Under the pieces are notes generated by a model. The model worked only from the letters and a program-made list of their open reading frames with translations. It did no database searches and was not told the DNA's origin. The position numbers and the translations under genes were made by a program. From the NCBI GenBank assembly GCA_027622715.1, contig JAQBYN010000004.1:1-64000 (forward strand): DNA of 64,000 bases, given 5' to 3'. The stretch comes from Pseudomonadota bacterium. Its GTDB lineage: Bacteria > Pseudomonadota > Alphaproteobacteria > SHVP01. This document shows positions 954-50,572 of the stretch, one piece after another (within the stretch, counting starts at the first letter, position 1; the number at the start of each line of letters is the position of its first letter).

Positions 954-1970
954 TCAGAGCAGCTTTGCGGCACGAACGTGTCGACGAACAGACTCCGCGG
1001 CCCAATCGAATCCGCGAAAGCGGAACGCGGCGGATCCCACAGCGTTGGTGCCCGCGGACAGGCCGCATAGTTGGCTGAAATCCTTGGCGCAAAGAAACAG
1101 TGGGAACTGGTCTCGTTCGGCTTTGTCGCGCGGGCGCACCTGGTCGTAGGCCGCTAGGAAGCGCTCAGCGATTTCCGGCGGATAATTGTTTTTGGCGGCC
1201 GACCAGCAAAAACTTCCCAGTTCGTGCGACATGTGACCGTAGCCGCACGTTTCGAAATCCATCAGCGTAACGTGGCCGTCGTGGACAAAGACATTGAACG
1301 GCGTCGTGTCGCCATGTGTAGGCGACATCGGGGCTGCGGTGCCAGCATTGTCGAGCGCGGCGGGCAAGACTTCCGCCACGCGCGCATAAAACGCAAGATC
1401 GTCAGGTCGGTGGCCAAGACGGCGAGCGAGCGCGGGGAAGTTTCGGCGAATCGAATCCGCGTGATCCAGGCGCCGCTGATCGCCGCCGCCGAAACGCGGC
1501 GATACGACGTGAAGTTGTCCGATTAATGCGCCCAATGCCGCCGCGTGTTCCGCGGTTGGCGTGGCGGCCATTTCCGCGCCCTGGGCCCACTCAAATAAGG
1601 CGACATACCGGCGTCCTTCGGGGGCCTCGACCGAAAAGTGAAACTGTCCATTGCGTGCGCGCAGGGCCGGGGATACCGGCAAGCCCTCGGCCTTCAGAAA
1701 ATTGAGGTAGTCCAGTTCGTAAATGACCTCATCTTCGGTACGCCCCCGGGCGTTCCACAGGCGCACCGCGAGCCGTTCGGATCCGCACCGCAATTCGTAG
1801 ACATCGTTCATGCCGCGCGCCAACAACTCGCAGTGCAGCGGTTTCGGTAGGTCATAATGCGCCCCGATCTCGGCACCCAAGGCGTCGGCATCAATAATGG
1901 AATGCAGAATCGGCAGTACGCGACGTGTGGTATCTGCGCCGACCGAGTTTGTGTCTTTTGCTGCGACCAT
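954..1970 (-). CDS. Aminoglycoside phosphotransferase/homoserine-kinase-II-like kinase
   Basis: This is a 338-residue protein of the APH/choline-kinase fold. The Brenner-type catalytic loop HGDTTPFNVFV and the metal-binding MDFETCGYGH are both present in the last third, and the N-lobe has an AVRLWNARG strand with the expected Lys position occupied by Arg-Leu-Trp. These enzymes transfer phosphate from ATP to a small hydroxylated substrate such as homoserine, choline or a sugar. I place the start at the ATG at 1970 because GAGGA lies just upstream; a longer frame reaches 2024 but has no clear ribosome site. It is divergent from the hydrolase at 2119. Substrate unknown. Confidence 0.85.
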   Translation of the reverse strand: MVAAKDTNSVGADTTRRVLPILHSIIDADALGAEIGAHYDLPKPLHCELLARGMNDVYELRCGSERLAVRLWNARGRTEDEVIYELDYLNFLKAEGLPVSPALRARNGQFHFSVEAPEGRRYVALFEWAQGAEMAATPTAEHAAALGALIGQLHVVSPRFGGGDQRRLDHADSIRRNFPALARRLGHRPDDLAFYARVAEVLPAALDNAGTAAPMSPTHGDTTPFNVFVHDGHVTLMDFETCGYGHMSHELGSFCWSAAKNNYPPEIAERFLAAYDQVRPRDKAERDQFPLFLCAKDFSQLCGLSAGTNAVGSAAFRFRGFDWAAESVRRHVRAAKLL

Positions 1971-2118
1971 AATTCCTCGTAATAAAGTGTGGGCCTGAGC
2001 CAACAAGTCGTCATGGTGCCACAAAAATTGGCCGGGTGCCGACCACCGCGGCCAGCCCTTCAGGGGCGATCCCCTGCTATGCTAGTTTTTGCGCGAAGTT
2101 TCCAGCAGAGGCGTCTTC

Positions 2119-2928
2119 ATGCCCTACGTCAGCAGCGACGGTGCTGAAATCTATTTCGAGTCCCATGGCGAAGGCCCGGCGGTTGTTCTCGCCCACGGCG
2201 CGGAAGGGAACGCCCTTAGCTGGTTCCAACAAGTACCGATTTTCGCAAAGCACTATCGTACGGTGCTCTACGAACACCGCGGTTTCGGTCGCTCGACGTG
2301 TTCCCCCGAAGCGCTTCAACCGTCGAAGTTTGGCGCAGACCTTCTTGCCGTCATGACGGCGCTCGAAATTGATCGCGCGTCGATCGTCGCGCAGTCGATG
2401 GCGGGGTGGAGCGCAATGCAGGCGGCTCTCGCCGCGCCGCAGCGGATTTCGTCGATTGTCCTGGTCGCAACATCGGGCGGTCTTGCGCCACCGGTCGGAG
2501 GCGATACGCCGCCCGCGGTTGATCCGCTACCCCTGGCAGGACGACTTTCCCAACTCGCGCTCGCCCCAAGTTTCCCGGCAGGCGAGCCCGCGCTGGCCTG
2601 GCTGTTCGATCAGGTTTCGATGCACAACATGAATATCGAACTCTTGGCAGGGCGCCTCGGGCTGGTCGAAAACCTCATCCGTCCCGAAGTCTTGGCTGGC
2701 TATACAACGCCGACGATGGTGGTTGCCTGTGACCAAGACACATTTTTCCCGCCAGATTTACTTGAGCGGGTTGCCGCGATGATACCGGGCGCGGGCTACG
2801 TTACGATCCCCCAGTCGGGCCATGCGCCCTACTGGGAAAGGCCGGCGGTATTCAACGACATGGTGCTGAAATTCGTCGGGGAACACAGCGGCGGGCAGGC
2901 GACCCAGAGATCGATTGAGAATCGGTAA
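2119..2928 (+). CDS. Alpha/beta hydrolase
   Basis: A 269-residue alpha/beta-hydrolase-fold protein. The oxyanion region is VLAHGAEGNA, and the strand after it holds YEHRGFGRS. The nucleophile elbow is AQSMAGW, where Ser sits in an Ala-x-Ser-x-Ala form instead of Gly-x-Ser-x-Gly; the catalytic His is in PQSGHAPYWE near the C terminus. It should hydrolyse an ester, lactone or C-C bond in the cytoplasm. The ATG at 2119 gives the canonical N terminus (MPYVSSDGAEIYFES); an upstream ATG at 2089 adds ten unlikely residues. It lies 18 bp before the quinone oxidoreductase gene, so the two are probably co-transcribed. Confidence 0.88.
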   Translation: MPYVSSDGAEIYFESHGEGPAVVLAHGAEGNALSWFQQVPIFAKHYRTVLYEHRGFGRSTCSPEALQPSKFGADLLAVMTALEIDRASIVAQSMAGWSAMQAALAAPQRISSIVLVATSGGLAPPVGGDTPPAVDPLPLAGRLSQLALAPSFPAGEPALAWLFDQVSMHNMNIELLAGRLGLVENLIRPEVLAGYTTPTMVVACDQDTFFPPDLLERVAAMIPGAGYVTIPQSGHAPYWERPAVFNDMVLKFVGEHSGGQATQRSIENR

Positions 2929-2946
2929 CGGTCGGTTGGAGCGAAC

Positions 2947-3948
2947 ATGACGGAAATGAATGTCATTGAGATGGATGGTCGCGGGGCCGCCAAGGTCATG
3001 CGGCTTGCGACACGCCCGATTCCGGCGCCAGGGCCGGGCGAGGTATTGATTCGGACGCGGGCGATCGGCGTCAACCGTGTCGATATTCTGCAGCGCAGCG
3101 GCCAATACACGCCGCCCTACGGCATCATCGACGTGCCCGGTGTCGAACTGTCGGGCGACGTTGCCGCCCTAGGCGATGGCGTAACCGGCATGGCGGTCGG
3201 CGATGCGGTATGCGGCCTGATCGTCGGCGGTGCTTACGCAGAATACTGCGCCGTCCCGCAAACGCAGGTGCTGCGCTTGCCAAAGGACTACGACTACATT
3301 CACGGCGCGGCACTGCCCGAGGTGCACTTCACCGTCTGGACCGCGTTGATGCAGCACGGTCGCTACAAGGGCGGCGAATCCCTGCTCGTGCACGGTGGGT
3401 CGAGCGGAATCGGCACCACAGCGATTATGCTGGCCCGCGCGCTCGGCGCCGGAGACATCTACGCCACGGCCGGCAACGCGCAGAAGTGCAAGGCTTGCGA
3501 GGATCTCGGCGCGGCTAAGTGCGTCAACTACAAGACAGCGGATTTCGTCGAGGCCATCGGCGACCTGCGCGGGGACGCCGGCGTCGACGTGATCCTCGAC
3601 ATGGTGGTCGGTCCCTACGTGCCGAAGAACCAGTCGCTGCTCGCGCCCGACGGCCGGCTGGTCTTCATCGGCCTAATGAGCGAACAGCGCGAGGTTCAGA
3701 TCAACGCGTCGTCGGTGATGATGAAACGACAGATCATTACCGGGGTTTCGCTGCGCGGCCAGTCCCTCGCTCAGAAGGCGGCGATCCGCGACGAAATGGA
3801 GAAGGTCGTGTGGCCGCTGCTCGACCACGGCAAGATGCGGCCCGTCATCGATTCGGTCTATCCGATGGCCGAAGCCGTCGCGGCGCACAAACGGCTCGAA
3901 ACCAGCCAGCACATCGGCCAGATCGTCCTGACGGTGGACCCCGCTTAA
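2947..3948 (+). CDS. NAD(P)H:quinone oxidoreductase, PIG3-type MDR protein
   Basis: A 333-residue medium-chain dehydrogenase/reductase of the zinc-free quinone oxidoreductase branch. The N-terminal GroES-like part has the GVNRVDILQRSG segment typical of the TP53I3/PIG3 group, and the Rossmann half has GGSSGIG for NADPH binding. The catalytic zinc Cys/His set of alcohol dehydrogenases is absent. Such enzymes reduce quinones or alpha,beta-unsaturated carbonyls. The protein has the usual family length. It follows the hydrolase at 2119 with an 18 bp gap. The precise substrate is not visible. Confidence 0.9.
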   Translation: MTEMNVIEMDGRGAAKVMRLATRPIPAPGPGEVLIRTRAIGVNRVDILQRSGQYTPPYGIIDVPGVELSGDVAALGDGVTGMAVGDAVCGLIVGGAYAEYCAVPQTQVLRLPKDYDYIHGAALPEVHFTVWTALMQHGRYKGGESLLVHGGSSGIGTTAIMLARALGAGDIYATAGNAQKCKACEDLGAAKCVNYKTADFVEAIGDLRGDAGVDVILDMVVGPYVPKNQSLLAPDGRLVFIGLMSEQREVQINASSVMMKRQIITGVSLRGQSLAQKAAIRDEMEKVVWPLLDHGKMRPVIDSVYPMAEAVAAHKRLETSQHIGQIVLTVDPA

Positions 3949-4029: not shown

Positions 4030-5511
4030 ATGGCGATTATTCAGCGTTACGCGGCGGCACCCACTAAATCGGAAAAAATTCGCGGCGGACTGGGGCACCC
4101 TGTTATTGATGCCGATGGTCATCTTCTTGAAGTGGAACCGGTTCTTCTCGATTACATCAAGGCGGTGGGGGGGCCAAAACTTCAGCATCGCTATGAGACG
4201 TTCATGGCGAGCCGGCCCTACGACAAATGGCATGCCATGTCGTGGGATGAACGGCGCGCAAATCGCCCGATGCGTCCGGCGTTTTGGTTTACCCCCGCCG
4301 CTAACACGGTCGACCGGGCGACGGCGATGCTGCCGGGACTCCTGCGCTCCAGGCTCGATGAAATTGGCGTCGACGTTTCGGTGCTTTATCCGACCCAGGG
4401 GCTCGCGGTGTGGCGCATCGGCGATTCGGAGCTGCGGCTCGGGGTCATCCGCGCACTGAACGACATGAACGCAGATTTGTTTAGCAGTTACGGCGACCGT
4501 CTGATCCCCGCGGCGGTAATCCCGATGCAAACACCGCAAGAGGCGCTAGACGAACTGGCCCACGCGGTTGGCACACTCGGCATGAAGGCAATCATGATCG
4601 AAGGCACCATCCGCCGTCCATTCCCCACGACCCAACAGGGCGTTATCGAAAGGCCCGGCGATAACAAAGCATTCTGGATCGATTCGCTGGGGATCGACGG
4701 CGCCCATGACTATGACCCGGTATGGCGCCGCTGTGTCGACCTAAAGGTATCGCCGACGATCCACACCGGCACGATGGGGTGGGGCGCACGTTGCTCGATC
4801 TCGAACTACAACTATAACCACATCGGCCACTTCGCCGCCGGCAACGAGGCGGTGTGCAAGGCGTTATTCATGGGCGGCGTGACACGGCGGTTCCCCTCGC
4901 TGCGCTTCGGTTTTCTCGAAGGCGGAGTCGGCTGGGCATGCAGTCTCTATAACGACCTGATCGAGCACTGGGAGAAGCGCCACATCGGGGTGATCGAACA
5001 GAACCTCGATCCTGCGATGATCGACCGGGCGCTGCTGGTCGACCTGTTTGAGCGCTATGGGGATACTCGGCACCGCGAGAAGATCGATCAGATTCGTCTC
5101 GGTGACGGGACCTATTTCGATCAGCATCCGGAACGGCCGGAAGATATCGATGATTGGGCTGCTTGTGAGATCAAACAAAAACAGGACCTACGCGACCTCT
5201 TTGTCCCCAACTTCTACTTCGGTTGCGAAGCTGACGACCGGATGGCGGTCTGGGCCTTCAATGACAGGGTCAATCCGATGAATGCCCGCTTGAAAGCGAT
5301 GTTCAGTTCGGACATCGGTCACTGGGACGTCCCCGATGCGACGAACGTCCTCGCTGAATCCCACAGGCTCGTCGAGATGGGATTGATGAGCACCGACGAT
5401 TACCGCGATTTCGTTTTCGGCAATGCCGTGACGCTTTACGCTGGGCTAAACAGTGATTTCTTCAAGGGCACGACCGTCGAGGCCGAAGCTGCCCGCGAAT
5501 TGACGGCTTAA
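4030..5511 (+). CDS. Amidohydrolase-family (amidohydrolase 2) metal-dependent hydrolase/decarboxylase
   Basis: 493 residues of a TIM-barrel amidohydrolase of the ACMSD-like PF04909 type. The N-terminal metal motif appears as VIDADGHLLEVEP, where the usual D-x-H pattern reads D-A-D-G-H. A central IHTGTMGW supplies a His, and the C-terminal SSDIGHWDVPD supplies the last Asp. Many relatives are annotated as decarboxylases or hydrolases of aromatic-ring products. It is longer than typical members (about 330-400 residues), with an insertion around residues 200-320. SD GGAGGG lies five bases before the ATG. The stop overlaps the stop of the Rieske gene on the other strand (TTAA), and a role in the same catabolic route is likely but inferred. 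Confidence 0.87.
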   Translation: MAIIQRYAAAPTKSEKIRGGLGHPVIDADGHLLEVEPVLLDYIKAVGGPKLQHRYETFMASRPYDKWHAMSWDERRANRPMRPAFWFTPAANTVDRATAMLPGLLRSRLDEIGVDVSVLYPTQGLAVWRIGDSELRLGVIRALNDMNADLFSSYGDRLIPAAVIPMQTPQEALDELAHAVGTLGMKAIMIEGTIRRPFPTTQQGVIERPGDNKAFWIDSLGIDGAHDYDPVWRRCVDLKVSPTIHTGTMGWGARCSISNYNYNHIGHFAAGNEAVCKALFMGGVTRRFPSLRFGFLEGGVGWACSLYNDLIEHWEKRHIGVIEQNLDPAMIDRALLVDLFERYGDTRHREKIDQIRLGDGTYFDQHPERPEDIDDWAACEIKQKQDLRDLFVPNFYFGCEADDRMAVWAFNDRVNPMNARLKAMFSSDIGHWDVPDATNVLAESHRLVEMGLMSTDDYRDFVFGNAVTLYAGLNSDFFKGTTVEAEAARELTA

Positions 5512-6686
5512 CGGTTTGACGGGGCCTGCGGTGGCCGACCGACACAGGCGCTCCACGCCGCGTAAAACGTGCGCAATCCAATGTCGTCTTGGGCGGTGCG
5601 GTTCTCGTCGCGGGCAATGATCTGATACTGCGCGGCGCCACCGCCGAACGATTTCTCGCACGCCTCGGCGGCAAAGGCGTCCTCTGGAATGTTGCGCCCA
5701 AAAGGACCCCAGAACTGGTTGTGGTGCTGCATCCGGGTGCGCCGGGTTTCGCTACTGTCGCCTTTCAGTCCAAGACCGCGGAATTCGATCAACGTATGGC
5801 GTTGATCGATAGGGATAATCGTGTCGATGCGGATGACCGTGCCGCGCGATAGCACCATCGCGTTGGGAAACAGATGGGTTGTTCGCATGTCGTTCGCCGG
5901 TGCGCCAGGCAGGGCAAGGCTGTCGGTGCGGGCGTTCCAGCCCTTGTAATTGTCATAGTTCATTTTCTGACCGCCGCCGCCGATATGTCCGTTCTCAAAA
6001 ATGTCGACAGTACGGCCTTTGTCGATCTGTGTGCGGCGCAGCGCGACGTGCATCAACGTATGGTACGCGTCGACGTTCGTCTCCATCCACGCCTTCCAAT
6101 TGGCATCGATCCGGGTGCGGTTAAAATGAAATACTTCGAGCTCACCGCCGCCAAGGAGGTCTTCGAAGCGATCGAGCGACCCCGCAAGAAAGTCTTCGAG
6201 CGACGGTGCCTTGTCATCCATGTTGATGAAAATCAGACCGAATTTTGTTTCGGTGCGGACGGCGCGAAGGCCGCAATCGTCCATGCGCAGTCCTGTCGCC
6301 GCGTACCCTTCGGGTCGCGGAATATCAATGCAGGCGCCGAGCGCGTCGTAGCTCCACAGATGATAGAAGCAGGTTAGTCGCGCAGCGTTGCCGCTAATCT
6401 CGTGGATGATCTTGGCGCCCCGGTGAGAGCAGGTGTTGACGAAAGTTCGGACGATGCGGTCGGGTCCGCGAATCACAATCAGCGGCATCCCGACATGATC
6501 GAGGGTGCGAAAGTCACCCTGCGCCGCGAGCTCGCTTTCGTGGCAGGCGAAGCGCCATAGACGGCCAAATATCTTCGTCCGTTCGTCATCAAAAATGCCT
6601 GGGTCGGTGTAGACATTGCCGCTCACATAGTGGGTTGGCGGCAGTTGCGGCGGCGTTTGCCACTGATCGGCGTTTCGGGATGTCAT
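5508..6686 (-). CDS. Rieske [2Fe-2S] ring-hydroxylating oxygenase, alpha subunit
   Basis: 392 residues. The Rieske ligands are visible as CSHRG and CFYHLW, about 18 residues apart in the first third. The mononuclear iron site is NVDAYHTLMH followed by an Asp in NIPEDAF. The two His are separated by three residues, while I would expect four in naphthalene- or vanillate-type oxygenases. The enzyme would insert oxygen or demethylate an aromatic or quaternary-amine substrate using electrons from a separate reductase, not encoded here. It is the last gene of the binding protein-ATPase-permease operon, starting two bases after the permease stop. This implies that the transporter imports its substrate. 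Confidence 0.92.
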   Translation of the reverse strand: MTSRNADQWQTPPQLPPTHYVSGNVYTDPGIFDDERTKIFGRLWRFACHESELAAQGDFRTLDHVGMPLIVIRGPDRIVRTFVNTCSHRGAKIIHEISGNAARLTCFYHLWSYDALGACIDIPRPEGYAATGLRMDDCGLRAVRTETKFGLIFINMDDKAPSLEDFLAGSLDRFEDLLGGGELEVFHFNRTRIDANWKAWMETNVDAYHTLMHVALRRTQIDKGRTVDIFENGHIGGGGQKMNYDNYKGWNARTDSLALPGAPANDMRTTHLFPNAMVLSRGTVIRIDTIIPIDQRHTLIEFRGLGLKGDSSETRRTRMQHHNQFWGPFGRNIPEDAFAAEACEKSFGGGAAQYQIIARDENRTAQDDIGLRTFYAAWSACVGRPPQAPSNR

Positions 6687-6688
6687 GA

Positions 6689-7483
6689 TCAGGCCGCCGG
6701 CGGTCGCTTTTCGACCATCACCGACTCGTGCCAGGGCACGATCACGCGCCGTGCGCCGATGACCGCGAGATACATCACGAATCCCAGAAACGTTAAAAGT
6801 GCGATGACCGCGAACAAGCTATCGACTTCGTACGCATTCAGGGTCGCCACGGCCAAATGGCCAAGACCAACGTTGCCACCGAGATACTCGCCGACGACCG
6901 CGCCGATTGTGGCCAAAACGATGCCGACTTCCATACCGGTCAAGATCGCCGGCAGAGAGCTCGGAAATTCGAGTGTCCAAAACGTTTGTGTGCGCGAGGC
7001 ATTCAAACTGGTCATGACATCGCGGTGGCCGAGGTCGACCGATTTGATGCCGAATAGCGTGTTGGTGAAAATCGGGAAAAACGCCAGCACCGCGGCAATC
7101 ACGATTTTCGATTCCGGTCCAAAGCCGAACCACAATATGAATAGCGGAATGAGCGCGATCTTCGGTACGACCTGCGCCGCGACGATGTAGGTGTTGAGTG
7201 TTCGTTCGAGCCAGGGAACTTTGCCAAGGACCGCGCCCGTCAGGATCCCCGTGACCGACGCTATCGCGAACCCGGCAAGGGCCTCATAGACGGTGATCGA
7301 GGCGTGCCGAAACGTGCCCGGGTCGGTCAACAGCTCCCACAGGCCGCCGAATACGGCCACCGGCGACGGCAGAATGAATTTTGAGACGTCGAAGATGACG
7401 ATGTAGTAGTGCCAAATGAGAAAAAAGACGGCGAGGATCAACGGGTTGGCGATCCATACAGCGTTGCGCCGGACGAATTTCAT
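6689..7483 (-). CDS. ABC transporter permease, SsuC/TauC type
   Basis: 264 residues with about six membrane helices and the cytoplasmic coupling (EAA) segment ALNASRTQTFWTLEFP, typical of the nitrate/sulfonate/taurine/thiamine-precursor importer class. It forms the inner-membrane channel for the ATPase encoded just upstream, with which it overlaps by 4 bp (ATGA-type coupling). The Rieske gene follows after two bases. The class does not fix the substrate; aromatic acids and sulfonates are both known. Confidence 0.93.
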   Translation of the reverse strand: MKFVRRNAVWIANPLILAVFFLIWHYYIVIFDVSKFILPSPVAVFGGLWELLTDPGTFRHASITVYEALAGFAIASVTGILTGAVLGKVPWLERTLNTYIVAAQVVPKIALIPLFILWFGFGPESKIVIAAVLAFFPIFTNTLFGIKSVDLGHRDVMTSLNASRTQTFWTLEFPSSLPAILTGMEVGIVLATIGAVVGEYLGGNVGLGHLAVATLNAYEVDSLFAVIALLTFLGFVMYLAVIGARRVIVPWHESVMVEKRPPAA

Positions 7484-8304
7484 CCCATCTCCTCCAGCTC
7501 TTCGCGGAGGTCGCGGACGATTGACTGAAACTCCAGTGTGGTCTGAAGCCGCATATCCCGCGGCCGCTCGAACGACACATCGGTAATGCTGTGCACGCGG
7601 CCCGGGCGCGGCGATAACAGGATGATCCGGTCCGCGAGAAAGACCGCTTCCGAGATCGAGTGCGTGACGAACAGAACGGTTCGTTCGCTTTGCATCCAGA
7701 TGCGCTGAATTTCTATGTTCATCTGGTCGCGCGTCATTGCGTCAAGGGCGCCGAAGGGCTCGTCCATTAGCAAAATCTCAGGATCGTAGGACAGGGCGCG
7801 CGCAATCGCCGCGCGCTGGCGCATCCCGCCTGATAGTTCGCGCGGCCAACGGCGTTCAAAGCCCGAGATGCCAACGAGTTTGCAAAGTTCGTGGGCCCGT
7901 TGAAGCCGGTCCTGTTTGCTGGCGCCGCGCAATTTGAGCGGTAACGCGATGTTTTGTTCGATGTTGTACCAGGGCATCAGGTTTGCTTCTTGGAACACCA
8001 CGCCAAGTTCCTGCACGGCCTTATTGTCGCGCTGATCGTTCTGCCACAGGTCGCGTCCGCCGATGAGGACCCGGCCGTTACTCGGCCGCAGTAGTCCGGC
8101 GGCGATCCGCAGCAGCGTAGTCTTGCCGCAGCCCGACGGGCCAAGCAAGACGATGAATTCACCGCGGGCAAACGACAGGTTGATGTCCTGTAGCGCGTGG
8201 ACCGTACCTTCGGCTGTCTCGAATCGCTTCTCGATACCGGAAAATTCGATCTCTGTCGGTCGCGTGGCGGCGGCGCCCTCGGCGACATCAATCTGACTGT
8301 TCAT
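7480..8304 (-). CDS. ABC transporter ATP-binding protein, SsuB/TauB type
   Basis: 274 residues with every nucleotide-binding motif: Walker A GPSGCGKTT, signature LSGGMRQR, Walker B ILLMDEPFGALD and the switch His in VTHSISEA. It powers import through the overlapping permease gene. The length and the C-terminal SPRPGRV element match the nitrate/taurine subfamily. The N terminus (MNSQIDVAEGAAATRPTEI) is slightly extended before the ABC core. Regulation is probably shared with the binding-protein gene, with differential expression through the hairpin at 8322-8356. Confidence 0.95.
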   Translation of the reverse strand: MNSQIDVAEGAAATRPTEIEFSGIEKRFETAEGTVHALQDINLSFARGEFIVLLGPSGCGKTTLLRIAAGLLRPSNGRVLIGGRDLWQNDQRDNKAVQELGVVFQEANLMPWYNIEQNIALPLKLRGASKQDRLQRAHELCKLVGISGFERRWPRELSGGMRQRAAIARALSYDPEILLMDEPFGALDAMTRDQMNIEIQRIWMQSERTVLFVTHSISEAVFLADRIILLSPRPGRVHSITDVSFERPRDMRLQTTLEFQSIVRDLREELEEMG

Positions 8305-16599: not shown

Positions 16600-17736
16600 T
16601 CAGTGGGCGGTCTCAGGCTCTTCCAATCGCATGCCGCGCGTATTGGCATTTTTCATGTCGGCGCTCGTAAGGTCTGCATACCGCGTGTAGCCGACCTCCT
16701 GACCATCCAGGGCCCGAATTTTCATTGCGCGCAAGTCAGCACTCGCGAGGTTGGCTTTTCTTAGGATAGCCCCGCGCAGCTTGATCCCGCGTAAATCGGC
16801 ACCCGCCAGAACCGCGCCCTCAAGATTGCATTCGCTCAAGTCGGCAAGCTCGAGTGCCGCGCCCCGAAGGTTGGCGCCCGCCAGATTACAATTGACGATC
16901 CGCGCGCCGCTGAGGTACGCGCCAGGAATGTCGATCCCGGTGAGATCCTGATCTTCTAAGGTCAAACGCTTGCCGCGTTCGCCGTTCGACGCGGCCCACA
17001 ACGCATGCGCCCGCATTTGACCTTGCAAAGACTCCGGCAGTGACAGAATGGCGCGGAGTGCGTCGTCGCCCGCGCCGCGATCGATCGACGCGCCGGTCAG
17101 AAGGGCGCCACGGAACCGAGAACCCAAAAGGCTGGCGCGCTCCAGATTTGCGCCGGACAGATTGGCGGCCGTGAGGTCGGCCGAATCGAGACGGGCCCCA
17201 GAGAGATTGGCCATCGACAGGTCGGCCTCTTCGAAATTTGCACTTTCGAAATTGGCCCCGGATGCGTCGACGTCCTTGAGGTTGGCGCGCTTGAGGTTTG
17301 CAAAAAGAAGTCGCGCCCTACTCAGAATCGACCCTTCAAGGTTCGCACCGCTCAAGTCCGTACGGGTCTCTGCGGTACCGAGGCTTGCCTTGCCGGGCCT
17401 CAAATCCGCGCCCGCGAGATTGGCGCCCTTGAGAACAGCGCCGCGGAACCGAGCGCCGCGCAGATCGGCGCCTTCAAAATTCGTCCGCGTGAGGTTGGCG
17501 CCGGCAAGATTGGCGCCGAACAGATCAGCCTCGCTAAGATCGGCGGTCGTCAGATCGATCCGCGATAGATTTGCGCCCGTCAACTTTGCTTGTCGCAAAT
17601 CGATGCCCGGCAGACGCAATCCGGACAGGTCGGCGCCGTGCAAATCGGCGCGTTTTCCACCAGGTCGCCCGGTTGAAAACCGCGCATGCTCGCGCAGAAT
17701 GGTCACGAGTGCCTGAGAGTCGAATGGGGTCGTCAT
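16600..17736 (-). CDS. Pentapeptide-repeat protein
   Basis: 378 residues made almost wholly of A(D/N)LxX pentapeptides (ADLSEADLFGANLAGANL and so on). The chain should fold into a right-handed quadrilateral beta-helix. The run breaks once around the SLPESLQGQMRAHALWAASNG segment, dividing it into two helices. Some family members mimic DNA and bind gyrase; here nothing points to that specifically, and most such proteins have no known role. No signal peptide. It starts at the ATG at 17736 and stands alone between convergent and divergent neighbours. Confidence 0.92.
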   Translation of the reverse strand: MTTPFDSQALVTILREHARFSTGRPGGKRADLHGADLSGLRLPGIDLRQAKLTGANLSRIDLTTADLSEADLFGANLAGANLTRTNFEGADLRGARFRGAVLKGANLAGADLRPGKASLGTAETRTDLSGANLEGSILSRARLLFANLKRANLKDVDASGANFESANFEEADLSMANLSGARLDSADLTAANLSGANLERASLLGSRFRGALLTGASIDRGAGDDALRAILSLPESLQGQMRAHALWAASNGERGKRLTLEDQDLTGIDIPGAYLSGARIVNCNLAGANLRGAALELADLSECNLEGAVLAGADLRGIKLRGAILRKANLASADLRAMKIRALDGQEVGYTRYADLTSADMKNANTRGMRLEEPETAH

Positions 17737-44445: not shown

Positions 44446-45346
44446 ATGAAACACTATCGGTGTCGCGCTCATTCTTGTCGGGCTCGGCGCGGCAACGGCG
44501 CAGGCCCAGTCGCGCTACAGCCCGATCGACCGCGGCGGTAGCGGTCAGATTCAGACATTGATCGACGAACTGCGCCGCCTCACCGATGACGCCGACCGCG
44601 CCCGGGCGGCTGACCCGGTTTTCCTGCGCGACTTGCGATCGCTTGCGGCGCGCTACGACAACCCGTGGCGACAACGTTTGGTCGAGGACGACTTCCGCGA
44701 CGGTGAATTTGCCGCCAACCCGGCCTGGCTGGTTGGCACCGGCGAGTTTTTCGTCAGCCAAAGCGGGCTAGAAAGCCGGACCACCGCTGCGGTGGCGGCG
44801 CGCCCCAACAGCGGGTCGGGCAACACGCCCTCCACCGAAGATGTCGTCGTCGGGGTCATCGCCAACCTCCTGACCCGCCGGCTCACCGATGACAGGACCC
44901 CAAGCCCGCAAACCGCGCCGCAGCCCGCGAGTGCCGCACAAATCTACCTGCCGGCTAAAATCTCCAACCCCTTTTCGATCACCGCCGAGATTTATCAGCG
45001 CACCGCCGGCACTTCGTTGGAACTCCTCGTTTACCAAGGCGCCGGGCGCAGCGCTGGCTATAGCCTGCTGTTCGAGCCCGGCAAGAAAGCCTTGTTGATC
45101 CGCCGTGCCAGCAGCGGTGCGGCGGTTGTCCAAGAAAGCGCGTCCGCGGTCACGTTTACCGTCAACACCATCCACGCGCTCGAATGGACCCGCAACGCCG
45201 ACGGTTTCATGACCGTGCGGCTCGACGGCAACCCGGTGATGGAAACCCTCGACCGCGGCTTTCGCCACCCCTTCGACGGGTTCTCCCTGATCAACCGCGG
45301 CGGCGAATACGGCCTCGCCTCAGTTCGCATCGACGGCACCAGCTAA
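44446..45346 (+). pseudogene. Exported protein with concanavalin-like C terminus, frame change in first codons
   Basis: The ATG at 44446 is out of frame with the rest; removing one A from the following AAA run gives the perfect signal MNTIGVALILVGLGAATAQAQS and then the 260-residue chain continuing to 45346. A TTG at 44558 would be the only start in frame without repair and loses the signal. The mature part has a middle region of low complexity and a C-terminal beta-sandwich (NPFSITAEIYQRTAGTS, YSLLFEPGKKALLIRR, DGFMTVRLDGNPVMETLDR) of concanavalin/laminin-G shape. Sequencing error or very recent mutation are both plausible. Confidence 0.65.
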
Positions 45347-45437
45347 CCTCGGCTCACTGTGGTCATTGCAGGCGGCATCGAACCGTTGCCTCGATAGCGC
45401 GGGTCGTCAGGGAGGCACCACATGGCCACGCATACCG
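45316..45437. repeat. Direct repeat, copy 1 (degenerate)
   Basis: About 122 bases covering the last codons of the preceding gene, the intergenic region and the first five codons of an RraA-type gene (ATGGCCACGCATACC). Copy 2 at 47089-47205 keeps roughly 80 percent identity with two short gaps. Here the RraA start leads only to a 16-codon frame (stop at 45470), so this is the truncated copy. Confidence 0.85.
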
Positions 45438-45455
45438 ATACTAGGTGTCTGACCC

Positions 45456-46553
45456 ATGTCGCCCAGCGCTAAAATCGGCGGACTGAAAAGCACCCGTCAT
45501 CTCGCCATAGCCGCTGCGTTTGCAGCACCCGGAACCCTGGGTGCTGGGATTAAGTCACTCGGATTTGTCCAGGCGGATCCGATCCGGTCGCCTGCGCGGG
45601 CCCAAGACTTGATCCTGCGTCAGCGCGTGAACGACTACCGCGCTGGGGATCTGGAAAGGCACTACGCGGCGCTCGGGCTGGAGGAGACCTATCTACACGT
45701 TTACGGTTTCGCGGCACCGGCATTGGCGGACTACCTGCTGCCACGTCACGGCACGACTGCACCAGCCGGACTGACCGCCGACGTTCTGGCCTTCGTTCAG
45801 GCGCGGGGTGAAACGCACCCGCGTGACCTCGATGCCGCGTTTGGCCGGGCGACCGAGGCGAACCACTGGGGCAGTAAGTCGGCCGCTGGCACGCGCGCCC
45901 TAGATTGGCTGCATTTCCATGGCCACTTACGCGTGGCGCGGCGCGAATCGGGCATCCGCGTCTACGCACCACGCCAACGGCCGGTGTTGGACCTGTCGCC
46001 CCAAGCTCGGCTGGAACACGTGGTGATGGCGCTGGCGCGGCTCCTGAATCCCATTCCGGCAGCGAGTCTGGCCCCGCTCTCAACGCAGGTTGCGCGCGGC
46101 ATAGCCGGCCGCGGCGCCCGGATGGATGCCGTCAAACCGTTGCTGGCGCGCGGCGAGTTAAGGCGCGACACGGTTGACGGCATGGACTTCCTTTCGCCTT
46201 CAGAAACCCGCCAAACCGTCTCCCCGCCGGCACGCCGAGTGCGCATCCTCGCCCCATTCGACCCACTTTTATGGGACCGTAGGCGGGTAGAGCATTTGTG
46301 GGGTTGGCGCTATCGGTTTGAGGCCTATACCCCGCCGGCACGGCGGGTCATGGGCTTTTACGCCATGCCGATTTTGTGGGGCGATGCGCTGGTCGGTTGG
46401 GTCAACGCCGCACGGCGTGATGGAGCGTTGCATATCGAGACGGGCTTTCGCGCGCGCCGACCGGGCAGTGCGGCTTTCGGCAACGCGTTCGACGCCGAAA
46501 TCGCTCGCCTCGACCGTTTCCTCGTACCGCCACAAGGGCGCGGAAAATCATAG
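45456..46553 (+). CDS. YcaQ/AlkX-type winged-helix DNA glycosylase
   Basis: 365 residues of the YcaQ (HTH_42) fold: winged helices with ARAQDLILRQR and GSKSAAGTRALDWLHFHGHL, a beta-barrel with ILAPFDPLLWDRRR and a C-terminal FYAMPILWGDALVGWV. The active pair Q-x-D is present as FVQADPI, the form used by E. coli YcaQ/AlkX for unhooking interstrand crosslinks. It therefore probably repairs alkylated or crosslinked DNA. It starts within the remnant of repeat copy 1 and lies wholly inside the repeat-bounded segment. Confidence 0.92.
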   Translation: MSPSAKIGGLKSTRHLAIAAAFAAPGTLGAGIKSLGFVQADPIRSPARAQDLILRQRVNDYRAGDLERHYAALGLEETYLHVYGFAAPALADYLLPRHGTTAPAGLTADVLAFVQARGETHPRDLDAAFGRATEANHWGSKSAAGTRALDWLHFHGHLRVARRESGIRVYAPRQRPVLDLSPQARLEHVVMALARLLNPIPAASLAPLSTQVARGIAGRGARMDAVKPLLARGELRRDTVDGMDFLSPSETRQTVSPPARRVRILAPFDPLLWDRRRVEHLWGWRYRFEAYTPPARRVMGFYAMPILWGDALVGWVNAARRDGALHIETGFRARRPGSAAFGNAFDAEIARLDRFLVPPQGRGKS

Positions 46554-46791
46554 CAACGATGTGATGCCCGAGCCGGAGACGGCCTAATCGGCCGCCCACC
46601 GCGCATTTTGCGTCAGGTCTCAATAGTCCTTCTCAGAATGGCACCCGGTCGATCTCTGCTTCGTGCCAGGCGATCGCAGGGGGTCCAATTCGGTTGATTC
46701 GCGCTCTGGCTTGCTTTTCTAAATCCAAACGTAGGACATTCCGCTCTTTAGGCCATGAGTTCCCATCCAACTTGCAACAACGGTGACTCCT

Positions 46792-46983
46792 TTGAAAAAA
46801 CTTTCCTGCGACATCTGCACGACGAGCTTTACCGGCGACACGTTCGACGCGTGGTTCAAGCAGATGCAGGCCCACTACATGAACGATCATGCCGACGTGA
46901 TGGCATCGATGGCGGACAAACCCAAGTCGGAAGGCGAGGCCTGGGTGGCCGCCGCCAAGAAGCGGTTCAACGCCGCGCAATAG
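46792..46983 (+). CDS. Small C2H2-type zinc-binding protein, 63 aa
   Basis: From a TTG at 46792 (GGTGA five bases upstream) the product starts MKKLSCDICTTSFTGD and has Cys-x2-Cys near the N terminus and His-x4-His in QAHYMNDHADV, a C2H2 pattern over about 30 residues. The rest is helical and basic. A GTG at 46783 is also in frame. A zinc-stabilised nucleic-acid or protein-binding role is likely for such a small protein, which is inference. It lies inside the repeat-bounded segment, after the glycosylase. Confidence 0.65.
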   Translation: MKKLSCDICTTSFTGDTFDAWFKQMQAHYMNDHADVMASMADKPKSEGEAWVAAAKKRFNAAQ

Positions 46984-47088
46984 GCCCACGAGGCGCAGGT
47001 CAAAGGCGGCTGTGGCGCCACGGCCAGCACGGGTGAGCTTGGCAACGGTCCTCGTGTTCCTGCCGTGACCGCCCCAGGGGCCAGCCAA

Positions 47089-47205
47089 GCCTCAATACGC
47101 ATCGACGGCCTCAACGAACCTCGGCACACTGTGGTCAAGGCGGCGGCATCGAACCGCCGCGATAGCTCGGTTGTCAGGGGAGGCACCACATGGCCACGCA
47201 TACCG
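47089..47205. repeat. Direct repeat, copy 2 (degenerate)
   Basis: About 117 bases matching 45316-45437, ending in the start codons of the intact RraA-type gene at 47190. The first part recalls the last codons of the concanavalin-like gene (AATACGCATCGACGGC), although that gene ends 1.7 kb upstream. Confidence 0.85.
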
Positions 47206-47903: not shown

Positions 47904-49012
47904 CATGACCGGACCCGCACCCCACGCCGTCCTCGCCGCCGCCCACCATGACGAGGCCGCGCGCGAACAATTCTTGGTCGATCTACGCCGCGAGGTCGTG
48001 CGCCAAGCGCGCGGTCTACGAAACGCGCGTTCTGCCCGCCTTCAAGAAAGCACATGGCCGCGCGCCCAAGGATCGCCATGAAATCCGCAAAGCCATGCTT
48101 GGGGACGAATTGGGCCGCACCACCAGCGCGTTGCGGATGACCCAGCAGGAAATGAAGTGGGACGCGGTCCACGAAACCGTCACCCGGCAATACGACGATC
48201 TACAAGGCCGCGCGCACCCACACCATGCCCGCGGTACGCTCCGGCTTAACCCCGATCTAGCGCTGCCGCGGTATCTTACAGCCGTGGACATTCACGGTAT
48301 GCCGGGGAATTACACCGGCGACCGCAGCGCCGAGGACATCTTCGCCGGCGCGATCTACGACCGCGGCGTGTTCGTCCGCGGCATGGGCATGGGCGGGCCG
48401 TATAACGACAGCTTCGGTCGCGCCACCGTTGCCTACCTTAAGAAAGCCTATCCGGATTTTTATCCACGCCGCATTCTCGACGCCGGCTGTTCGATCGGCC
48501 ACTCGACGCTGCCGTTCTGCGACGCTTACCCCAAGGCCGAGATGCACGCCATTGACCTTGGCGCGCCGATGCTGCGATACGGTCATGCCCGCGCCGAATC
48601 ACTGGGGCGCACAGTGCATTTTTCGCAACAGAACGCCGAGGCCACCGACTTTCCCGACAATCATTTCGATCTGATTATCGGCATGGCGATGCTGCACGAA
48701 ACCTCGACCAAAGCGATCGCCAACGTCTTCCGCGATCACTACCGGATTCTCGCGCCAGGCGGGCTGTGTTTGCATTTCGAAGGCCCGCCGTGGGATCGCA
48801 TCCCCGATTTCGATGCCGCCGTGCACGACTGGGACACCCACTACAACGCCGAACCGTTCATCGGCAAAATGCACGACCTGGATCCGGAAAAGCTGGTGGT
48901 CGCCGCCGGTTTCGCCCCCGCCAATTACATCGACACCTATGTGCCGGCAGGGTTCAAAGGAACGTCAGGCAGTCTGGGCGGCGATATCTGGCTATTCGGC
49001 GGCCGCAAGTAG
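47904..49012 (+). pseudogene. SAM-dependent methyltransferase, copy 2, frame-shifted near the N terminus
   Basis: AGGAGG precedes an ATG at 47904 whose frame (MTGPAPHAVLAAAHHDEAA) matches the N terminus of copy 1 at 9576, yet this frame stops near 48080. The remainder of the protein, from AVYETRVLPAFKKAHGRAP to DIWLFGGRK, is in the frame two positions on. The change falls around 47995-48015. The methyltransferase motifs are intact (LDAGCSIGHSTLPF, MHAIDLGAPM, ILAPGGLCLHF). An ATG at 47948 could start a shortened protein. The N-terminal domain is the same unassigned one as in copy 1. Confidence 0.72.
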
Positions 49013-49024
49013 CGGCAAGCCGCT

Positions 49025-50350
49025 CTAACAGCTCGGCTTAGCGACCACCAGGCCAAAGCCGAACACGTTGTCTTTCCCCGGCGTCCCGAGGTCGGCCGAC
49101 TGCTTGGCCAATGCGACGCGAATGGTGGTTGAATCAGCCTTACTCTGTACGGCTTCCAGCGCCGCCAGCACCGCAATAAACGGCGTCGCAAACGACGTGC
49201 CGGACTGGTACTTGCCGCCGCCCGGCACCGCTGTCCAGATTTTCACGCCCGGTGCGGCAAAGTCGATATAGGCGCCGCTGTTGGCTTCGGAATAGACCAA
49301 CCGGTCCTCGCCCACGGCGGTCACCGCCACGACGTCATCGAAGGCCGCCGGATAGGCTGGCCGGTCAGCGCTGCCCCAGTTGCCGGCGGCGGCGACCATC
49401 ACCACTTTGCTCAACGACGCTTTCTTGAACGCGAGTTCCAATACTTTGTTGGACGCCCCCGCGATCGACAAATTGATGGCGTGCACCTTCTCGCCGATGA
49501 TCCAGTCAAGCGCCTTAACCATCCCAACGGCATTGCCTGAGGGCTGGCCGTCTTTTTCTTCGAACATGTTGCCCGCGAATAGTTGCGCGCCGGGCAATAG
49601 GCCGCCCCAACCCTTGTTGCCGGGCTGACCGACCAGCAGCGCCGCGACCGCCGTGCCATGGCTATGCGCGGCCGGCGGGCGGCCTTCTTTGTTGAATGAT
49701 TTGTAGGTTACGTTGCTGCCCTTTAGCGCGACGTGGTCGGTATCGAGCGCACCGTCGATCATGCCCAGCTTCACGCCGCGGCCGCAGCTCGGCTTGGCCT
49801 GCTCCCAACCGGCGGTCCAACGCGCCAGGCTGCCACTGCGCAAACTTGCAGGCGGCGTTCCCGACGGTTCGTACAGATGATTGGCGTCGGCAATGATGCC
49901 GGGAAATTCGCGGATCAGGGTTTGTCGCGCATCGGGCACCGTGGTGTTGGCCGGAACACGCAGACGAATTATTTCCAAGCCCAGGTTGCCCAACCGTGTT
50001 GCATCCAAAATGCGAAAGCCCAGCGCCTGCGCGTCGCGCGCGAAATCGGCCGGCGCATTGGCGACAATCACTTCGCCGGGTTCAAAGCGGTCATCGGGAT
50101 TGGCGGCATTCGGACCGCCTGCCGCGCCGGGTTGTCCGCCGCGCGGTGCTGCGGTGTTGCGGCTCCGGTCACTGCCCGCGCCGCGCTGCTGGTCGCCCGA
50201 TCCGCGGGAGCTTTCAGAGCCGATAACCCGTCCCTGTTTGTCGTATTTCAAGATGGTCGTCTTGGATTGCGCTTGCGCAGAATCGACTGCAACGACGGCC
50301 AATGCTGTAAGCAGCGATATGGCGGCGACAAAGGCAAGAAGACAACGCAT
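49025..50350 (-). CDS. Subtilisin-like (S8) secreted serine protease
   Basis: 441 residues with a signal peptide (LLAFVAAISLLTALAVVAV then DSAQAQ). The triad is Asp in GMIDGALDTDH, His in HSHGTAVAAL and Ser in GTSFATP near residue 386; the oxyanion Asn is in AAAGNWG. A long Arg/Gly/Gln-rich segment (GSGDQQRGAGSDRSR) precedes a propeptide-like region. It should act in the periplasm or outside the cell. I use the ATG at 50350; the frame opens at 50383 with a TTG. Convergent with the methyltransferase copy. Confidence 0.9.
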   Translation of the reverse strand: MRCLLAFVAAISLLTALAVVAVDSAQAQSKTTILKYDKQGRVIGSESSRGSGDQQRGAGSDRSRNTAAPRGGQPGAAGGPNAANPDDRFEPGEVIVANAPADFARDAQALGFRILDATRLGNLGLEIIRLRVPANTTVPDARQTLIREFPGIIADANHLYEPSGTPPASLRSGSLARWTAGWEQAKPSCGRGVKLGMIDGALDTDHVALKGSNVTYKSFNKEGRPPAAHSHGTAVAALLVGQPGNKGWGGLLPGAQLFAGNMFEEKDGQPSGNAVGMVKALDWIIGEKVHAINLSIAGASNKVLELAFKKASLSKVVMVAAAGNWGSADRPAYPAAFDDVVAVTAVGEDRLVYSEANSGAYIDFAAPGVKIWTAVPGGGKYQSGTSFATPFIAVLAALEAVQSKADSTTIRVALAKQSADLGTPGKDNVFGFGLVVAKPSC

Positions 50351-50572
50351 CGGCGAGTCCGTTCCAATCAACATGAGGGGCAATACATTACCACGGATTG
50401 CCGCCTGTATGAGGTGGCCGCGGAACCGCGCGACCCCGCGTTTCCTAGGCGATTCTCCGGCATTTTTGGCAAATCCGAACAGCCGCCGCGCGGCCGCTTT
50501 GACCGGCGCGTAGCGGGGCTATACCGTCGCGCCGACAAGGCGCTTATCGCGCCACTTGGGAGGAGAAAAGTT

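Follow-up and report, generated by a model that had tools for sequence, protein, structure and literature searches.

Probable capture of a DNA glycosylase gene between two copies of a gene junction in an alphaproteobacterial genome

A predicted DNA glycosylase gene and a small gene lie between two direct copies, each about 120 bp long, of the junction between two neighbouring genes, here called concA and rraA. The window, by which we mean the whole 64,000-nucleotide stretch of DNA analysed, is part of contig C33 (125.7 kb) of a 3.15-Mb genome (G000). As the best overall explanation, we propose that a short piece carrying both genes entered the concA–rraA junction after the split from two sequenced congeners (G001 and G002), and that its entry duplicated the junction, most likely by way of a small circle and a single crossover. 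We give this full account a probability of roughly 0.55. On the + strand the genes follow one another in the order concA, glycosylase gene, 66-aa gene, rraA and methyltransferase gene, and the features of the locus are:

44558 to 45346, + strand: concA, an intact open reading frame upstream of the insertion; its orthologue in G002 is 75% identical and has rraA directly after it
45317 to 45437, + strand: left junction copy (L), made up of the final 9 concA codons with the stop, the spacer and the first rraA codons; its rraA side has decayed
45438 to 47088, + strand: inserted DNA between L and R, about 1.65 kb, its right limit uncertain by about 5 bp
45456 to 46553, + strand: predicted AlkX/YcaQ-type DNA glycosylase (PF06224), 365 aa, QxD motif Q39-A-D41
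46783 to 46983, + strand: putative small metal-binding protein of 66 aa, with CxxC and HxxxxH spacing
47089 to 47205, + strand: right junction copy (R), with a decayed concA end (stop lost), the spacer and the first rraA codons
47190 to 47864, + strand: rraA, an intact RraA-like gene (PF03737), 83% identical in G001 and 80% identical over the first 99 aa in G002
47948 to 49012, + strand: methyltransferase gene, after rraA

Profile searches changed several gene labels given in an initial sequence-only reading of the window. The YcaQ/AlkX-like call was right, since the glycosylase matches PF06224 at E 9.6e-41 over profile positions 1-329 of 329. The name RraA held at the level of the PF03737 superfamily but not at the NCBIfam RraA cut-offs, the product scoring 55 bits against an equivalog cut-off of 136 (NF006875). 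Two labels had to be given up: the "concanavalin-like" concA product matched no Pfam or NCBIfam family, and the "zinc-finger" 66-aa protein matched no Pfam family at E 0.001. In another genome of the set (L044; G006:C11:60000-75000, 4350-7768), three consecutive methyltransferase paralogues adjoin an rraA-like gene, where the window has a single methyltransferase gene. Elsewhere in the window, at 16842-17553, lie degenerate 15-bp-phased repeats, perhaps encoding a pentapeptide-repeat protein.

Direct repeats of about 120 bp, each made of the concA end, the intergenic DNA and the first codons of the RraA-like gene, had been proposed to bound the segment, at roughly 20 percent divergence. Pairwise alignment of the repeat cores (L, 121 bp; R, 117 bp) and a whole-genome search bore out the repeats, their length and their composition, with 104 of 116 aligned bases identical and 4 indels. 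The divergence proved lower, at about 10% substitutions plus the 4 indels, or 15% when gaps are counted. The L/R pair has a local score of 148, compared with a maximum of 26 over the 626 other 200-bp stretches of the whole window. When R was compared by BLAST with its whole own genome, L was found at E 2.6e-30 (85%), and the next best of 25 matches was a 24-bp stretch at E 0.008; this whole-genome search gave no third copy of comparable strength and nothing longer than about 26 bp. Counting a few weakly matching bases moves the outer limits nearer to 45312 and 47084. The repeats are real and specific.

These data also bear on two rival explanations of the arrangement. An assembly chimera in a draft genome would agree with the glycosylase having its nearest relatives in other organisms, but the 12 differences in 116 bases and the 4 indels between L and R show that the copies are not one sequence used twice. 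Moreover, the contig is 125.7 kb long, and the genome is estimated to be 100% complete and 0.2% contaminated; we consider a chimera highly improbable. Alternatively, a longer concA–rraA block could have been duplicated in tandem and its interior later replaced by the cargo. Such a duplication would give the same order of parts, with L ending inside rraA and R beginning inside concA. However, when the segment was compared with the window only the repeats matched, the insert holding no further rraA or concA sequence, and an extra step would be required, which makes this history improbable.

Relatives of G000 preserve the empty site. In G002, of the same genus, 76 bp separate concA (7482-8264) from the rraA gene after it, which runs from 8341 to the contig end. 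In G001, also of the same genus, rraA comes after a gene that we take to be AsmA-like; concA itself is lost, and its last codons persist as a remnant in the 85-bp gap before rraA (L041; G001:C3, 7167-7251). Each genome has a single junction, and the inserted DNA is absent from it in both. The gene order in G002 and the concA remnant in G001 together point to an ancestral order of AsmA-like gene, concA and rraA, which bears out the concA-then-RraA order that had been suggested and supports a later insertion with a duplicated junction. In these two same-genus genomes we saw neither both repeats standing without the segment nor a repeat lacking a homologue. The glycosylase gene was absent from all nine same-family genomes searched (G001-G009).

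We then compared the divergence of the junction copies with that of the species. At 0.10 (12 of 116 bases), the divergence between L and R is far below that at four-fold degenerate sites between G000 and G001 (0.45-0.50, five genes) or between G000 and G002 (0.43-0.53, three genes), and the two copies are closer to each other than either is to the relatives' junctions. Both comparisons place the duplication after the split from G001 and from G002, unless gene conversion kept L and R alike. The event had been called old, a label to be qualified, since it appears younger than both splits.

The differences between L and R are not spread evenly. Using G001 and G002 to polarise them, L carries the ancestral base at 5 and R at 1 of 6 sites in the concA part, while in the spacer R is ancestral at 4 countable sites and L at none. 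The concA stop codon has been lost in R. With 10 sites the test is small, and alignment of the spacer to G002 is poor. The count excludes gapped columns, positions 45399-45409 (an indel with uncertain alignment) and position 45366, at which G002 agrees with neither copy; of the excluded sites, 45403 is split and 45409 favours R. Such a polarity would follow from duplication of the whole junction and later decay of each copy on the side that had fallen out of use.

A segment ancestral in the genus could instead have been lost from G001 and G002 by recombination between its direct repeats. Direct repeats ease such a loss, G001 has lost concA at the same place, and gene conversion between L and R could hide their age. 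This history would nevertheless need two independent precise losses together with absence from seven more genomes of the family; it sits badly with L and R being more alike than the relatives' junctions are to either, and with a tree in which the nearest glycosylases belong to another group. We regard it as unlikely, if somewhat less so than tandem duplication.

In AlkX/YcaQ-like glycosylases the catalytic motif is QxD, whereas AlkZ-like proteins have QxQ, as described for this family (PMC13303869). The window protein resembles the AlkX/YcaQ-like (YQL) interstrand-crosslink glycosylases treated there in matching PF06224 over its whole length and in having QxD (PMC13303869). VQAD is common to the window glycosylase and 84 of 84 relatives of the group compared. 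The frame is intact and QxD kept, although L and R differ by 4 indels in about 120 bp. Only one solved-structure sequence, 9zd6, matched at E 0.001 (E 7.6e-12), and no NCBIfam model matches the protein. By family membership, its function is presumably the repair of alkylated or crosslinked DNA.

Several observations address where this gene came from. In a survey of the class, 102 of 385 sampled genomes had some glycosylase match and only 4, G000 included, scored above 200 bits; class proteins are 28-42% identical to the window glycosylase. The closest relative among the best 80 loci of the matches listed from genome contigs is 61% identical and lies in a metagenome-assembled genome labelled Asaia. 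A tree pairs the window protein with this Asaia-labelled locus (L080), within a set of nine rows bearing mostly Acetobacteraceae/Rhodospirillales labels (support 99/99), and a long, fully supported branch sets its group apart from five YcaQ-like rows of the class. Codon use of the two inner genes gave a divided answer: the glycosylase gene stands out from its neighbours (z -7.4), and the 66-aa gene is in line with them (z -0.3). The outlier lends weak support to a foreign origin because an S8 protease gene nearby (PF00082; window 49025-50383, - strand) also deviates (z -5.5), though conserved in G001. We infer that the glycosylase gene is foreign, an origin that is well supported. A plasmid origin was considered and rejected: the best plasmid match, 51%, was on a Roseomonas plasmid, and the genes annotated around it include no rraA, concA or small gene. 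A viral origin was rejected too, as neither the glycosylase nor the 66-aa gene had, by the scan used, a relative encoded on a viral contig. The glycosylase group (L080-L159, the best 80 among the matches listed) is spread over many phyla, including Acidobacteriota, Elusimicrobiota, Bacteroidota and Planctomycetota. This spread, along with the lack of an NCBIfam match for the window member, suggests frequent transfer of a little-described glycosylase group. We also considered translational coupling, as the start codon in L opens, by eye, a 16-codon frame overlapping the glycosylase start. The idea was dropped because a plausible ribosome site belongs to the glycosylase gene itself, and the length of the identical run behind the idea does not, by a hand estimate, clearly exceed chance.

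The 66-aa gene is rare, matching in 5 of 385 class genomes (G000 included), two of them weakly. The segment copy is the only one found in G000. Among the nine same-family genomes only G002 has the gene, at another place beside tRNA-Thr, and the two proteins are 63% identical. A within-genome move from the tRNA-Thr site was considered and rejected: only the coding part is common to the segment and G002 copies (76% over 164 bp), so no move can be shown. At this tRNA-Thr, G002 has a block of pirin, cupin and small genes that G001 is without; no direct repeats of at least 18 bp flank this block. Elsewhere in G000 (L077; G000:C14:45500-50500, 1746-3090), the same tRNA, tRNA-Thr(CGT), has after it a gene for a phage-type integrase (PF00589, E 6.5e-26), and G000 therefore probably carries an element at that tRNA.

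At the concA–rraA junction itself, a mobile element such as a transposon or integron is unlikely. A Pfam scan of six neighbouring genes detected no transposase or integrase, as had been noted from the sequence, and the ends of the insert have no inverted repeats: the end-to-end score was 10, compared with a mean of 9 and a maximum of 16 in 200 shuffles.

The remaining question is how DNA could enter without such enzymes and leave the junction in two copies. In our favoured account, entry would have duplicated the whole junction, about 120 bp, with both neighbours staying intact. The most likely vehicle would be a small circle, for example a linear fragment whose ends had been re-joined, with a junction copy of its own through which it recombined into the chromosome by a single RecA-type crossover. 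Later, each junction copy would have decayed in the half no longer in use, and the glycosylase would have been kept in frame, presumably under selection for repair of alkylated or crosslinked DNA. The features of a single-crossover scar are present, with direct junction copies flanking the cargo and an uninterrupted single-copy site in relatives. Precedent comes from E. coli, where linear DNA was re-circularised and integrated by a single crossover; in 14 sequenced clones the insert was flanked by duplications of 109-950 bp (PMC3240628). As described there, such Campbell-type integration places foreign DNA between direct duplications of the homologous stretch (PMC3240628), and the reported range brackets the roughly 120 bp found here. 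The incoming molecule in those experiments had known homology (PMC3240628), whereas the event here is natural and aged, and no donor with the junction was found. Homology-facilitated illegitimate recombination likewise captures foreign genes without mobile-element enzymes (PMC5361080, PMC3240628). Homology serves at one end, the other being joined illegitimately, with recipient DNA predicted to be lost (PMC3240628). For this reason it fits less well: both flanks here are whole and duplicated.

The Campbell-like integration first proposed thus fits the arrangement and has an experimental precedent, but a donor carrying junction and glycosylase together did not appear: rraA, concA, the 66-aa gene and the repeat were found at none of the best 80 glycosylase loci among the matches listed. 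A circle of the junction and the 1.65-kb cargo alone would be odd as well, unless a fragment had been re-joined to form it or trimming had followed. Capture by such a tiny circle, in which junction and foreign glycosylase integrated together so that the newcomer and rraA each received the same upstream region with neighbours undisturbed, is a tentative suggestion.

Insertion during repair could leave the same scar. A captured linear fragment could be sealed into a staggered double-strand break, its ends some 120 nt apart, as these were filled in. Alternatively, a replication fork could switch template to the fragment and return 120 bp upstream. In either case the cargo would be flanked by copies identical at birth, and the lost concA stop of R would be decay from such a copy. 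This route needs no homology in the donor and so fits the 80 of 80 listed glycosylase loci without the junction, and insert ends without inverted repeats agree with it. Four of 7 genomes searched, namely G000, G001, G004 and G006, encode Ku, which could do the joining. Against this route, about 120 bp would be a long duplication for end-joining fill-in, and junctional microhomology is beyond judging after so much decay. We see repair insertion as possible though doubtful. Since no donor was found, it and a single crossover are inseparable, and the circular intermediate with a single crossover is the best mechanism we can infer, plausible but unproven.

A literature search for flanking repeats linked to gene acquisition gave no paper. 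The event itself is of a known kind, an ordinary but unusually clear gene-capture scar. Most captured bacterial genes keep no trace of their route of entry. This locus has kept both flanking copies, an empty site in relatives and a rough relative age, and so offers a case study of how frequently single genes may arrive without mobile-element enzymes. If such scars are common, enzyme-free capture via short junction duplications would be a general route of single-gene transfer.
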